Assembly (NCBI RefSeq): GCF_013407145.1 | Contig: NZ_CP026993.1 | Span: 1,448,590-1,512,589, forward strand | Origin: Nitrosopumilus cobalaminigenes | GTDB lineage: Archaea; Thermoproteota; Nitrososphaeria; Nitrososphaerales; Nitrosopumilaceae | Direction: 5' to 3' | DNA length: 64,000 nt | Part shown: positions 40,713 to 45,120 of the stretch, piece after piece | Layout of the letters: each line of letters begins with the position of its first letter | How positions within the stretch are numbered: the stretch's first letter is position 1 | The notes under the pieces: model-generated | Databases searched by the model: none | Told to the model about the DNA's origin: nothing | What the model saw: only the letters and a program-made list of their open reading frames with translations | Program-made: the position numbers and the translations under genes

Positions 40713-41198
40713 ATGGCCAAAGACAAGAAAAAGAAAGAAGAAGAAAAACCAAAAAAGAATGATTTCAAGTCATTTTTGAAAAAGAGAGCCCCAATCTATC
40801 TTGCTTTGATCGCAATGTTAGTAGTATTTGTAATTCCTGAATATACCAAAGGAACACTAGAGAAGAGTTTTCCAGAATTTTCAGCTGAAGAACAACAAGT
40901 AATAGATATTTTGATGAAATATGATGGTCCAAATAATGATGGATTGACAGTCTTAGAAGCATTGGAAAATAAAATAGAAGAAGAATATCCTAATGAAAAA
41001 ATCTATGATCATAAAAAGACAGTGGTTGATTTAGTTGTGACAAATGTAGATTCTGAAGAATACAAAGTGAATTTTAATTTTAAATCACATAATGGTGAAA
41101 TGAATTATGATTGGAATGTAAATGTGATTTCTGAGGAAATTTCTTCAAACAATCCAGATGCAAAATACATAATTGATTTAGTTAACTATTACGACTGA
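40713..41198 (+). CDS. Single-pass membrane protein, unknown
   Basis: This 161-residue protein begins with a lysine-rich tail (MAKDKKKKEEEKPKKNDF), then one membrane helix (IYLALIAMLVVFVIPEY). An acidic, beta-rich domain of about 110 residues follows, probably outside. It lies 12 nt after the methyltransferase and may share its transcript. No family is recognised. Confidence 0.65.
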   Translation: MAKDKKKKEEEKPKKNDFKSFLKKRAPIYLALIAMLVVFVIPEYTKGTLEKSFPEFSAEEQQVIDILMKYDGPNNDGLTVLEALENKIEEEYPNEKIYDHKKTVVDLVVTNVDSEEYKVNFNFKSHNGEMNYDWNVNVISEEISSNNPDAKYIIDLVNYYD

Positions 41199-41240
41199 GA
41201 AATAGTTGTTTATATTAATAATTTAGACATATTTTTATTA

Positions 41241-41258
41241 TATACACATATGTGGATA
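41241..41258. promoter_or_regulatory. 18-bp near-perfect palindrome at the RHH gene start
   Basis: TATACACATATGTGGATA is palindromic with one mismatch and ends 2 nt before the ATG at 41261. A TATA-like run (about 41233-41243) precedes it. The core CACATATGTG is shared with the 20-bp palindrome at 44597. The position over the predicted transcription start is that of an autorepressor operator. Confidence 0.6.
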
Positions 41259-41260
41259 TT

Positions 41261-41410
41261 ATGAGTGTTAGAAGAAATTATGTAATAAACAAAAAACTAG
41301 ATAAAAAATTCAGAGACATAGTAAACAAAAATTATACTAAAGGAAAATACAGTGAATCTATAGAACAAGCAATACGATTATGGTTACAAGTACAGAAAAA
41401 TAGAAAATAA
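41261..41410 (+). CDS. 49-residue ribbon-helix-helix protein
   Basis: This small basic protein has the RHH plan. A short strand near the start (RRNYVINKKL) is followed by helix one (DKKFRDIVNKNY), a turn (TKGKYS) and helix two (ESIEQAIRLWLQVQ). Proteins of this size bind DNA as dimers and often autoregulate. The palindrome right at its start codon fits this. No toxin partner is clear, though the next gene could be one. Confidence 0.65.
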   Translation: MSVRRNYVINKKLDKKFRDIVNKNYTKGKYSESIEQAIRLWLQVQKNRK

Positions 41411-41453
41411 ATTCGACAGATCTATTAAGGAGTAAAATGGATGTATAGGATCC

Positions 41454-41732
41454 ATGCAGAGGGTAATTTCATTTGAAGATATAAAAAAATGGCATTATGA
41501 AGGACAACAATTAGAATTAGAATTAAATGAAAATGATTGGGAATATAGAAAGAAAATTTGTACTAAGTGTACTATTGAAGAACAAAAAAAGCTACATTGC
41601 CTTAAGGTAAATAATTTCAAAGATGGAATTCAAGAAACACATTGTGATAAACTGATTCACGCTAGAACTCAAAAAAATAAAAAAAAGATAGAAGGGTATA
41701 TTGAATCGCATCCATTAAGACAAGGAACTTAG
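41454..41732 (+). CDS. Cys-rich 92-residue protein, unknown
   Basis: This charged protein has Cys residues in CTKC (about residues 36-39), LHCLKV and THCDKL, enough for one metal site. The N-terminus is acidic and helical. The tail is basic (ARTQKNKKKIEGY), perhaps nucleic-acid binding. It follows the RHH gene by 43 nt and may be in its operon. It overlaps the convergent 322-residue gene by 4 nt. No family is recognised. Confidence 0.55.
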   Translation: MQRVISFEDIKKWHYEGQQLELELNENDWEYRKKICTKCTIEEQKKLHCLKVNNFKDGIQETHCDKLIHARTQKNKKKIEGYIESHPLRQGT

Positions 41733-42697
41733 CTTAAGAATTCTCTCAAACCTTTTCTTCTAGGAATATATTTTGTGTAAAATGTTCCTGCAAGAATATG
41801 TTCTCGTGCTCTTTTCCATTCTAAATGCAATAGTTTTGTAGATATAGTTCTGCTTTCTTCGTATGTAGAACCATTTGCATCTAATTGGAAATAATGTGTT
41901 TTTGGATTCAATGTGTGTGACTCGGCATTGGGAGTTCCCCCCCATGCAACACCCATGGATACTGTATGTGCTCCATATAGAAATGAAGTTGAAACTCTAG
42001 ATAGTTTATTTAGTCTACTAGGCCATCTAGATGTTATTCCAACAATATTACACCAAATATTTTTGCCATAAATTGTTCTAGACAATGCATTCCAATTGTT
42101 TATATTCTCAAGAGGTGATCTATAGATCACATTAACTTTGTCAAAGTTGTTAGCCATAACTTTATCAAGTTTCTTTTTAAATAATCCAATTGGTCTGATT
42201 CCTAAATCAATTGTTGGTACAATAATTGAATTTGGATTATCATTTCTTAGAGTTAGAATATCAATTTCAAACAAGTTTTCATCTTGATTACGATCTGTTT
42301 CATAATCAGAAATGAATTTTGATTTCAATTTTCTTTGTAACTCATGAATTATTGCTCTATCGTTTTGTGTTAAGATATTTTCTTGTGGATATTGAATATA
42401 CAAATCAATTAACGCCGAAGGATATTTCATTTGTAATGAATTGCCATCTTTGATTATCTTATTTTGCACAGATGTTTTTCTGATATACTCTATGTTGTTT
42501 AATCTAACAACATTTTGAATCAGTTGAGGATTTAGTGAGTTGTGTGCATTTTCAGCGTATAACAGTTCTACTCTATTTGGAACCGTCATAGGTAATTGAA
42601 TAATTTTATCCATTATCTTAACATCAATAGCATTAACACCACTAATGCCTAAACTAGGTTCTAGTTCCCTTGCAATATTTCTAACATTGATTTTCAT
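41729..42697 (-). CDS. 322-residue protein, unknown
   Basis: This soluble-looking protein has no signal peptide or membrane helix. The middle has VPTIDLGIRPIGLFKKKLD and NVIYRSPLENINNW, and the C-terminal third is rich in aromatic and basic residues (HYFQLDANGSTYEE, FYTKYIPRRKGLREFL). The shape could be an alpha/beta barrel, but this is a guess. No known catalytic motif is seen and I cannot assign a family. It lies in a run of orphan genes between two housekeeping blocks, so acquisition by transfer is possible. Confidence 0.6.
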   Translation of the reverse strand: MKINVRNIARELEPSLGISGVNAIDVKIMDKIIQLPMTVPNRVELLYAENAHNSLNPQLIQNVVRLNNIEYIRKTSVQNKIIKDGNSLQMKYPSALIDLYIQYPQENILTQNDRAIIHELQRKLKSKFISDYETDRNQDENLFEIDILTLRNDNPNSIIVPTIDLGIRPIGLFKKKLDKVMANNFDKVNVIYRSPLENINNWNALSRTIYGKNIWCNIVGITSRWPSRLNKLSRVSTSFLYGAHTVSMGVAWGGTPNAESHTLNPKTHYFQLDANGSTYEESRTISTKLLHLEWKRAREHILAGTFYTKYIPRRKGLREFLS

Positions 42698-42709
42698 GTC
42701 TTTTAGAAA

Positions 42710-42865
42710 TCAATGTTTCCACGAAATACGGCAGTGAGTACAATAATTATTGATAATTATTAACTTTGAACCACATTGAGGACAATTCGGTGCCGTCAAC
42801 TGAGCAAGTAATCCTACGATTGCTACGCCAAGTCCAAGTGCACTTAATGTTTCTGATTTACTCAT
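42710..42865 (-). CDS. 51-residue membrane-anchored zinc-ribbon protein
   Basis: A short ORF encodes a hydrophobic helix (LGLGVAIVGLLAQL) followed by a zinc ribbon with CPQCG and CTHC, ten residues apart. A strong Shine-Dalgarno sequence (GGAGGTG on the minus strand, 42871-42877) lies 5 nt before the ATG, so unlike most genes here it should have a leader. The zinc ribbon would face one side of the membrane. It lies 12 nt upstream of the 322-residue gene on the same strand and probably forms an operon with it. Confidence 0.75.
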   Translation of the reverse strand: MSKSETLSALGLGVAIVGLLAQLTAPNCPQCGSKLIIINNYCTHCRISWKH

Positions 42866-43081
42866 ATTTTCACCTCCTTGTACAATCTACCAGCAAATCT
42901 AGAGAATATTGGAACTGAAGAGTAAGCGTGTTAGGTATGCTCTCGACCATTTCAATGGGCTTCAATTGAGTATGGATTTCCTTATTCATTGATTTTACCT
43001 TATAAAGGGGTCACATTTTGTCATATTTAAGTATATTTCTTTCCGGTAAAACATTATATTTCCTACAAATAATTAATTATT
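42866..43081. other. Intergenic stretch, 216 bp
   Basis: It contains the Shine-Dalgarno site of the minus-strand zinc-ribbon gene. A TATA-like TTTATAA (minus strand, about 43001-43008) lies 140 nt from that gene's ATG. If used, it would give a leader of about 110 nt, unusual in this genome. The plus-strand side carries the promoter of the mini-ORFs that follow. No RNA gene is recognised. Confidence 0.35.
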
Positions 43082-43171
43082 ATGGCAAATAAAACAACCG
43101 ATCTAGTAAAATCTAGCAGATATCATACAACTTCTTTTGCGATAGAGAATGTGTGTTCAGATGAACAGTGA
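43082..43171 (+). CDS. 29-residue upstream ORF before winged-helix regulator
   Basis: An ATG ORF (start MANKTTDLVKSSRYH) ends with TGA at 43169-43171. It overlaps a 15-codon ORF that in turn overlaps the regulator gene. It is in the same frame as the regulator, separated by one stop. It may be a regulatory upstream ORF or a small protein; nothing in its sequence shows function. Confidence 0.35.
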   Translation: MANKTTDLVKSSRYHTTSFAIENVCSDEQ

Positions 43172-43208
43172 AGACATAATAACTGTCAAAGAAGGCGAAA
43201 TAGTATGA
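43161..43208 (+). CDS. 15-residue ORF coupled to winged-helix regulator
   Basis: The ORF MNSEDIITVKEGEIV starts inside the preceding mini-ORF. Its stop overlaps the regulator start as ATGA. Translation of this mini-ORF would deliver ribosomes to the regulator. It is too short for a domain; leader-peptide function is inference. Confidence 0.3.
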   Translation: MNSEDIITVKEGEIV

Positions 43209-43516
43209 GCACATTACTACAAAGTCCGGAAATGCTCAAGAGGATTAGCTTCGTAACTCATCCAAAAAGAATCCAAATTCTGAAAGAGATAGAAAATGCA
43301 GGTAGAGCAATGTACATTGCAGAAATTGCAAAAGCAATCAATGAAGAAACCCCACGAAATACATCATTCCACCTAATTGGATTATCAAAATTAGGCATAG
43401 TCGAATCTAAACTTCAAGAAATCCCAAATACAGAAAGAGCAGCTAAATTTTACAACATAACAGAAAAGGGTAAAGAACTATTGAAGAATATTGGAGAAAT
43501 CCAAATTAACATCTAA
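43205..43516 (+). CDS. ArsR-like winged-helix transcription regulator
   Basis: This 103-residue protein has the ArsR-like HTH plan: EMLKRISFVTHPKRIQILKEI, then AEIAKAINEETPRNTSFHLIGLSKLGIVES, and a wing ending in FYNITEKGKELL. No clear metal-binding Cys pair is visible. It is preceded by coupled mini-ORFs and followed 20 nt later by a membrane protein gene it may control. Confidence 0.8.
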   Translation: MSTLLQSPEMLKRISFVTHPKRIQILKEIENAGRAMYIAEIAKAINEETPRNTSFHLIGLSKLGIVESKLQEIPNTERAAKFYNITEKGKELLKNIGEIQINI

Positions 43517-43536
43517 CCCTTTCTTTTGTTTTTATT

Positions 43537-44136
43537 ATGACTAAACCAAGTAAAAGTACTACATACCTGTTGATCGGAATTGCAATTATCTTTGTTTTGT
43601 GGGGTTATTTTGTATTGTATGATATAGCCGATCCGTATAAAGCAAAAACAATAAAAAAAATTTCTGAACCTTATGAAGATCCTGTATATTTGATCTTTAA
43701 TTGGGAAACTGAAGATCAGATTCAAGTAGGCAAGAAAATTTATTTACAAATTGAAGCAATAGGATTACCATATAACAATACTACATTACCACCTATTGAA
43801 ATCACTATTGATGAAACATATTTGAATTATTGGAATGATGAAAACACAGAAAACCATGAGATCATGGATGATCCTAAATTTAGATTGGATAATTGGGAAA
43901 ATGACTCTCTAAGATCTAAAGTTATTCCCTTAAGATTCATTGTTCCTGCAGATATTCCAATTGAATATTGTGATTATGATTTAAGTTCAAATTGTATTAC
44001 GATTCAAAATATCATTCATCCAGCTCCGTTTGATTTAGCAGATGAGATTAAGAATTCTAGAATTTCAATTACTGCTTCTTTAGTAATTGTGGGATTGTCA
44101 AGTATTGTGGTATGGTCCAGATTTAGAAATAATTAG
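43537..44136 (+). CDS. Membrane protein with external domain, unknown
   Basis: This 199-residue protein has a membrane helix near residues 8-28 (YLLIGIAIIFVLWGYFVLY), an acidic beta-rich domain of about 130 residues with Trp/Asn-rich patches, and a second helix at the end (ITASLVIVGLSSIVVW). Both ends are basic and probably inside. It follows the winged-helix regulator by 20 nt. No family is recognised. Confidence 0.65.
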   Translation: MTKPSKSTTYLLIGIAIIFVLWGYFVLYDIADPYKAKTIKKISEPYEDPVYLIFNWETEDQIQVGKKIYLQIEAIGLPYNNTTLPPIEITIDETYLNYWNDENTENHEIMDDPKFRLDNWENDSLRSKVIPLRFIVPADIPIEYCDYDLSSNCITIQNIIHPAPFDLADEIKNSRISITASLVIVGLSSIVVWSRFRNN

Positions 44137-44172
44137 AAATTTGTGCCTAAAAAAAGAAAAAATGATAGATGA

Positions 44173-44355
44173 TTAAATTTCATCGTATCTTATTTTGATT
44201 TTTAGAGGTGTCTCTAGACCTACCGGTTTTTCTTCAGCTTTTAGGGTAAATCCAATTTCTCTTGTCTCATCAGGACCTACAGGTCTATTTTCTAAGGTAA
44301 TTCTAGTTTCAGTTAGTCTTTTTACTGGAATTTCTTTTGAATTTTTTTCTGTCAT
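44173..44355 (-). CDS. 60-residue acidic/basic mixed protein, unknown
   Basis: This short protein alternates charged and beta-prone stretches (RLTETRITLENRPVGPDE, EIGFTLKAEEKPVG, LKIKIRYDEI). The amino-acid make-up is coherent and unlike the opposite-strand reading. It could be a single small beta domain. It has an ATG start and is convergent with the membrane protein gene. No family is recognised. Confidence 0.5.
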   Translation of the reverse strand: MTEKNSKEIPVKRLTETRITLENRPVGPDETREIGFTLKAEEKPVGLETPLKIKIRYDEI

Positions 44356-44596
44356 AATACAGATTAGACTTCATTGCTTAATAGCATATTTTCTAAAATA
44401 TATTCAAATACTAGTATCAGTTTATCTGAAAATCAATTTAGAATTTAATTTCTTAATCTATGAACATGATTTTCAGGTAGTTGTCTATTGCATATGATAC
44501 AGATGTACCCCATATTCATAATTGGTTTTCATATTATTTAAGAATGAAAAGTGTCAGTATTACCAAAATATTACTAGAGTATTACTCCAGGGTACA

Positions 44597-44616
44597 ATAT
44601 ACACATATGTGTATAT
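44597..44616. promoter_or_regulatory. Perfect 20-bp palindrome, ATATACACATATGTGTATAT
   Basis: The two halves are exact inverse complements. The core CACATATGTG with flanking TATA is the same as at 41241, next to the ribbon-helix-helix gene. It is a strong operator candidate for that or a related dimeric regulator. Site use is inference. Confidence 0.65.
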
Positions 44617-44663
44617 CAAAAAATGATCCCTAAATGGAATTTAATGGTACAAATTTTAGAGAG

Positions 44664-44683
44664 TTAATAACTCGAGTTATTAA
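44664..44683. promoter_or_regulatory. Perfect 20-bp palindrome, TTAATAACTCGAGTTATTAA
   Basis: The halves are exact inverse complements, centred 48 nt before the HTH gene. As DNA it suits a dimeric regulator, perhaps the HTH protein itself. As RNA it would fold into an 8-bp stem with a 4-nt loop. It has no sequence kinship with the palindrome at 44597, so the gene may have two inputs. Confidence 0.6.
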
Positions 44684-44718
44684 GTCTGAGTTTAATACAA
44701 CTAAAACGTAGTTATTGT

Positions 44719-45120
44719 ATGTCAAATGGAAGACCAACTGCACAACAGCAAATAACATTACAAAATAAATTACGCAGTTATTATGAAAAAGGAATTTCAG
44801 CTACGCAAGCAGCAAGACATTGTAATATAAATCCAAAAACTGCCTGTAAATACTTTAGAGAATGGTCTAATGAAATTAATCAAACAGAATCAAAAGAGTT
44901 TGAAAATAAAATTACTGAAATGCGTTTACAACATCTAACTGTATTAGACAGACAATTAGCTGAACTAAATTATATGTTTGAGTCAGTTTATCATGGTAGA
45001 ACTTTTCAAGACAAGCTAAACATTGTTAAAATGATTCTTCAAATAATGGATAGAAAAGAAAAACTATTCAAAGATATCAAAAATACGCCTAAAATTTTAA
45101 AAAAGAAGTCTAGAGAGTAA
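44719..45120 (+). CDS. HTH protein resembling phage terminase small subunits
   Basis: This 133-residue basic protein has an HTH near residues 25-50 (YEKGISATQAARHCNINPKTACKYFREW), followed by a long helical part (MRLQHLTVLDRQLAELNYM) and a Lys-rich end. The layout resembles resolvase-like HTHs or terminase small subunits, which can be relics of proviruses. It could equally be a regulator of its own palindromic upstream region. It overlaps the convergent peptidase gene by 11 nt. Confidence 0.6.
   Translation: MSNGRPTAQQQITLQNKLRSYYEKGISATQAARHCNINPKTACKYFREWSNEINQTESKEFENKITEMRLQHLTVLDRQLAELNYMFESVYHGRTFQDKLNIVKMILQIMDRKEKLFKDIKNTPKILKKKSRE

Follow-up and report, generated by a model that had tools for sequence, protein, structure and literature searches.

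F55 of the archaeal virus SSV1 is a ribbon-helix-helix (RHH) repressor that covers the start site and BRE when it binds its own and other viral promoters (PMC5569661), and SvtR and AvtR are other RHH repressors of archaeal viruses. In SPP1, the pac site includes direct repeats and extends across the promoters of the small terminase (PMC4737164). The cryptic integrated element NitKor-E1 of Ca. Nitrosopumilus koreensis AR1 carries a small (TerS) and a large (TerL) terminase and no capsid genes (PMC6563490). RHH operators and TerS genes are already known kinds of feature. To our knowledge, almost no regulators or packaging sites have been defined in the mobile elements of ammonia-oxidising archaea.

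The locus analysed here, within a 64,000-nt stretch of the Nitrosopumilus cobalaminigenes genome (the window), resembles NitKor-E1 in that a terminase gene is found in a Nitrosopumilus element lacking other tailed-virus genes (PMC6563490). However, NitKor-E1 has TerL, an integrase and VapBC, whereas the island in the window is 3.9 kb in size, with TerS only and no integrase. The island is an insertion: in 12 of 12 Nitrosopumilus relatives, which align on both sides, its place is taken by an empty site of about 12 bp. Family searches of the island proteins found no integrase or transposase, and no flanking direct repeat longer than 8 bp was found at the island, which thus shows neither the integrase nor the att repeats that are hallmarks of phage satellites (PICI-like).

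The island genes encode a 49-aa RHH-type protein, a convergent pair of 92 and 322 aa, a zinc-ribbon protein, a winged-HTH protein, a 199-aa protein with hydrophobic stretches at its termini, a 60-aa protein and an HTH protein (Table 1). The 322-aa protein matched no Pfam, PHROG or PADLOC family, and neither it nor the RHH protein had a relative in viral contigs. The convergent pair (41454-42697 in the window; L201, 8207-9547; L202, 8236-9555) is kept in three genomes, next to restriction-modification genes in G011 and AbiE-like genes in G008, and is a possible defence cassette.

Table 1. Features of the integrated island and of the terS control region, in window positions.
Feature	Position	Strand	Basis or remark
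Integrated island, about 3.92 kb	41197..45117		Between a 161-aa gene (stop 41198) and a pepQ-like gene (3' end 45110)
Second pal1 copy, ATATACACATATGTGGATAT	41240..41259		1 mismatch; adjoins RHH start codon
49-aa RHH-type DNA-binding protein, probable repressor	41261..41410	+	Family consensus, AlphaFold2, weak homologue matches
92-aa protein, function unassigned	41454..41732	+	Convergent with 322-aa gene; same pair in G008 and G011
322-aa protein	41729..42697	-	Homologues in 3/120 relatives
103-aa winged-HTH (ArsR/PadR-like) protein	43205..43516	+	HTH_20, E 1.4e-5, below gathering score; candidate binder of pal2
Three 11-bp-spaced heptamers, GTAATAY	44557..44585	-	Only other array in the terS leader of G037 (L005/L106)
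pal1	44597..44616		Probable RHH operator; exact palindrome, recurs at RHH gene
14-codon ORF, probably not a gene	44622..44666	+	Frame broken by a stop in closest homologue (G334)
Tandem decamer TCCCTAAATGGAATTTAATGGT, conserved terS-leader element	44627..44648	+	Motif search over terS leaders
pal2	44664..44683		Imperfect extension to 44660-44687; probable operator just 5' of TATA-like box
TATA-like TTTAAT	44691..44696	+	About 25 nt before terS ATG; putative promoter, from spacing only
133-aa TerS-family HTH gene without terL	44719..45120	+	Stop codon in flanking DNA

The gene that the initial annotation called an orphan HTH gene is a member of a thaumarchaeal TerS family, here without TerL. 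The family was found in 35 of 400 genomes of the order, and its members share 17-38% identity with the window protein. TerS homologues commonly overlap the start of a long ORF bearing GGRQI[YF]KS; a long ORF follows directly in about 20 of 29, and an ORF with this motif follows 12 homologues. One such neighbour gene matches Terminase_6N (E 1.3e-8), and annotated phage large terminases align with 84-93% of the length of another. The AlphaFold2 model of the window protein (pLDDT 90) has an HTH and a long helical hairpin (helices 8-23, 28-35, 39-56, 59-91 and 96-121), corresponding to the N-terminal HTH and helical oligomerisation hairpin that are the hallmark of TerS, and its top-ranked, non-significant match in the PDB was the G20C small terminase (4xvn). 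The position of homologues before terL, the Terminase_6N and phage TerL matches, and the model together identify the gene as TerS-family. Since the island has no terL (it ends at the terS stop, and the next gene is the host pepQ-like gene), the assignment is to the family and not to a working terminase. Likeness to SPP1/SF6-type systems extends to an HTH protein with a helical hairpin, encoded by a gene that normally precedes terL, and to direct repeats in the terS promoter region (PMC4737164); unlike those phages, the island lacks terL and capsid genes, and its repeat sequence differs.

Truncation of TerS by the insertion, considered because of the stop codon in the flank, was weakened as an explanation by the closest homologue (G334), which is likewise short-tailed, without the PTAD tail, and lacks a TerL in its vicinity. 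Viral contigs, genome contigs and named phages yielded no relative of the window TerS protein. In three other genomes (G045, G030 and G340; L199, L200 and L198), terS with or without terL has the same host neighbours, aspartate dehydrogenase and nadA, and in G030 and G045 its other side is flanked by nurA-herA-mre11-rad50. These loci have no capsid genes, terL has an internal stop in G030 and is missing in G045, and together they suggest old resident terminase relics.

Upstream of terS lie the 20-bp palindromes ATATACACATATGTGTATAT (pal1) and TTAATAACTCGAGTTATTAA (pal2), both exact and 47 nt apart as first described. The accompanying claim that so close a pair is improbable by chance also held up: at the density of a 400-kb sample of the rest of the same genome, which has 2 perfect palindromes of at least 20 bp, a pair with its centres no more than 67 bp apart should occur about 0.0026 times per genome. 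No other perfect palindrome of at least 20 bp is found in the 64-kb window (Markov expectation about 0.18). The only other one of at least 16 bp, GTGATCTATAGATCAC at 42115-42130, lies within the 322-aa gene. Searches of the 1.56-Mb genome allowing up to 3 mismatches returned no other copy of pal2 and a single further copy of pal1, matching at 19 of 20 positions. The two palindromes bracket the tandem decamer, and the array of 11-bp-spaced iterons lies just upstream. The initial annotation mentioned neither of these repeats, nor the insertion, nor the second copy of pal1. Conservation of the palindromes with the HTH homologue, which the initial annotation had put forward as a check, gave a mixed result: they are absent from genomes that keep a homologue, but these are distant (at most 38% identity), and close relatives lack both the gene and the palindromes because the entire island is missing.

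The 49-aa RHH family consensus is present in 75 of 400 genomes. The copy in the window was not recognised by Pfam, whereas homologues gave weak matches to 56B_RHH, ParG and RHH_6; its AlphaFold2 model, of modest pLDDT (72), has an N-terminal extended stretch followed by two helices and returned no significant PDB fold match. The two copies of pal1 are the only ones in the genome, one on the terS side and the other adjoining the RHH ATG, preceded by the TATA-like TTTATTATATA. From the spacing of TATA-like sequences, a promoter is predicted at both copies. Because its only other copy adjoins the start codon of an RHH gene in the same island, pal1 is best read as a putative operator of that protein, and this part of the original proposal of two operators appears fairly likely from the sequence evidence. 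By analogy, a pal1 copy at the RHH ATG is the arrangement expected of an autoregulated archaeal repressor such as SSV1 F55. As with F55, SvtR and AvtR, a very small RHH-type protein is encoded in an archaeal mobile element, and as with F55 the protein has candidate sites at the promoter of its own gene and at one further promoter in the element (PMC5569661), predicted here from sequence alone. In contrast, F55 sites are tandem ATAGATAG repeats and the island site is a perfect 20-bp palindrome, and the host of the island is a thaumarchaeon.

The nearest RHH homologue (G054) has a palindrome of its own, the 26-bp near-palindrome TATAAACATATACGTGTATGTTTATA, just 5' of its start, and the pal1 half-site ATGTGTATAT occurs upstream of 3 RHH genes vs about 0.5 expected. 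Conservation of the operator across the family was weak, most RHH homologues having no strong upstream palindrome. ATATCT words are in excess upstream of RHH-family genes (L071-L099; 40 vs about 12 expected), hinting at AT-rich operators family-wide.

Between the palindromes lies a conserved element of terS leaders. An unsupervised Gibbs motif search showed that 22 of 26 terS leaders carry the tandem decamer TAAATGGWAAWAAATGGT on their sense strand, with a total of 500 vs 315-338 for shuffled sets. Its site in the window has the best decamer score of about 128,000 positions in the 64 kb, a score that a 400-nt stretch of this genome reaches with a probability of 0.0008 (0.004 in AT-rich stretches). 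The distance from decamer to ATG is 70 nt in the window and 71 nt in G334, which lacks both palindromes. Pairs of the GTAATAY heptamer were not found in the 400-kb genome sample.

The decamer is also found away from terminase genes. Solo intergenic modules consisting of the inverted repeat ACCATTTAATTT..AAATTAAATGGT and the tandem decamer were observed in six genomes (L158-L168 in G003, G031, G045, G308, G342 and G291), three of them dispersed in G003 alone; one lies near tRNA-His and one at the leuS 3' end in two genomes. Some solo copies of the decamer are near toxin-antitoxin, integrase-like or Cdc6-like genes. An Rfam search returned tRNAs only, so the solo copies are not known RNAs. Scanning viral contigs with the decamer pattern gave 29 matches, none near terS, and this result therefore lends the element no support and does not extend it more widely. 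The terS leaders of G031 and G382 carry another palindrome, TTTAGGGGTTAACCCCTAAA, at 147-167 nt before the gene; in G003 it is half-conserved (L103, L105, L014). We know of no previous description of the tandem decamer, for which the literature was not searched by name.

Taken together, these observations may be explained by two operators in the control region of an orphan terS at the right edge of an integrated mobile element. Pal1 would be the operator of the element's own 49-aa RHH repressor, with one copy over the start of the repressor gene and the other 100-120 bp before terS, where the sequence is promoter-like, such that the bound RHH protein would turn off both its own gene and the terS side. 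Pal2 would be an operator of another kind, immediately 5' of the terS TATA-like box and recognised by a dimeric regulator other than the RHH protein, and the conserved tandem decamer between the palindromes would be covered by chance by the supposed leader ORF. The location of pal2 between the decamer and the TTTAAT box is that expected for an operator, and as a candidate operator, judged from its sequence, we consider it about equally likely to be right or wrong. As only one copy of pal2 exists, what binds it can only be guessed, and the simplest candidates are the winged-HTH protein of the element and TerS. Counting against the operator reading, the terS-side pal1 could serve the 14-codon ORF or nothing. 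For the explanation as a whole, pal1 and pal2 combined, the considerations for and against appear evenly balanced.

Alternatively, the whole region 44557-44718 may be a packaging (pac/cos-like) site, in which iterons and decamer would bind TerS and pal2 would be the symmetric sequence that a terminase cuts or recognises. Direct repeats, a hallmark of pac, are present in terS leaders as the sense-strand decamer upstream of most terS genes, the iteron array is shared only with another terS leader, and inverted repeats such as that of G031 and G382 occur in other terS leaders. As both direct repeats and the terS promoters fall within the SPP1 pac site (PMC4737164), recognition by a terminase is an attractive role for the decamer. 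However, near-perfect copies stand in host intergenic DNA of several genomes without terS, several are followed at about 30 or 62 nt by a TTTAA box, a spacing that would suit a promoter element, pal2 is not conserved, and the window has no terL. Palindromes are, moreover, no known defining part of an SPP1/SF6-type pac, and any packaging role of the island is putative. Given the solo intergenic copies, a terminase recognition site and a promoter element are equally possible for the decamer, and a packaging site comprising the entire region seems unlikely.

We consider it just as doubtful that the palindromes are relic or neutral sequence, with no current role, in a decaying proviral fragment. 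An orphan terS without terL whose stop codon is supplied by the flank, the broken or missing terL of some relatives and an island known from one genome only are consistent with decay, but both palindromes are perfect, the reading frames of terS and RHH are unbroken, a pair so close is expected about 0.003 times per genome, and pal1 recurs exactly at the RHH start. A broader scheme appears quite improbable: thaumarchaeal capsid-less terminase elements would share the tandem TAAATGGWAA decamer as a packaging recognition site, also found solo, and the island would represent a satellite-like member pared down to TerS and the site, controlled by its own RHH protein via pal1 and by the second operator pal2, and borrowing viral TerL and capsid.

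The least probable reading, an operator with an RNA hairpin coupled to a leader peptide, in which the 14-codon ORF and pal2 would control the HTH gene by attenuation or as a translational switch, was rejected: the ORF is present and its stop enters pal2 as initially annotated, and local hairpins are predicted at pal1 (-7.4 kcal/mol) and pal2 (-9.9 kcal/mol), but the ORF is not conserved, no T-run follows pal2 as it would a terminator hairpin, and the 104-nt leader folds no better than shuffles (z -0.69). Since the ORF covers the conserved non-coding decamer and its frame is broken in G334, it is probably incidental; and as the TATA-like box lies after pal2, the latter is probably not transcribed with terS.

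The two-operator reading makes the window a testable putative repressor-operator pair in a mobile element of an ammonia-oxidising archaeon. Authors of a survey of thaumarchaeal mobile elements have called the function of capsid-less terminases enigmatic (PMC6563490), and the comparison made here reveals a conserved non-coding element before terminase genes that persist without capsid genes.
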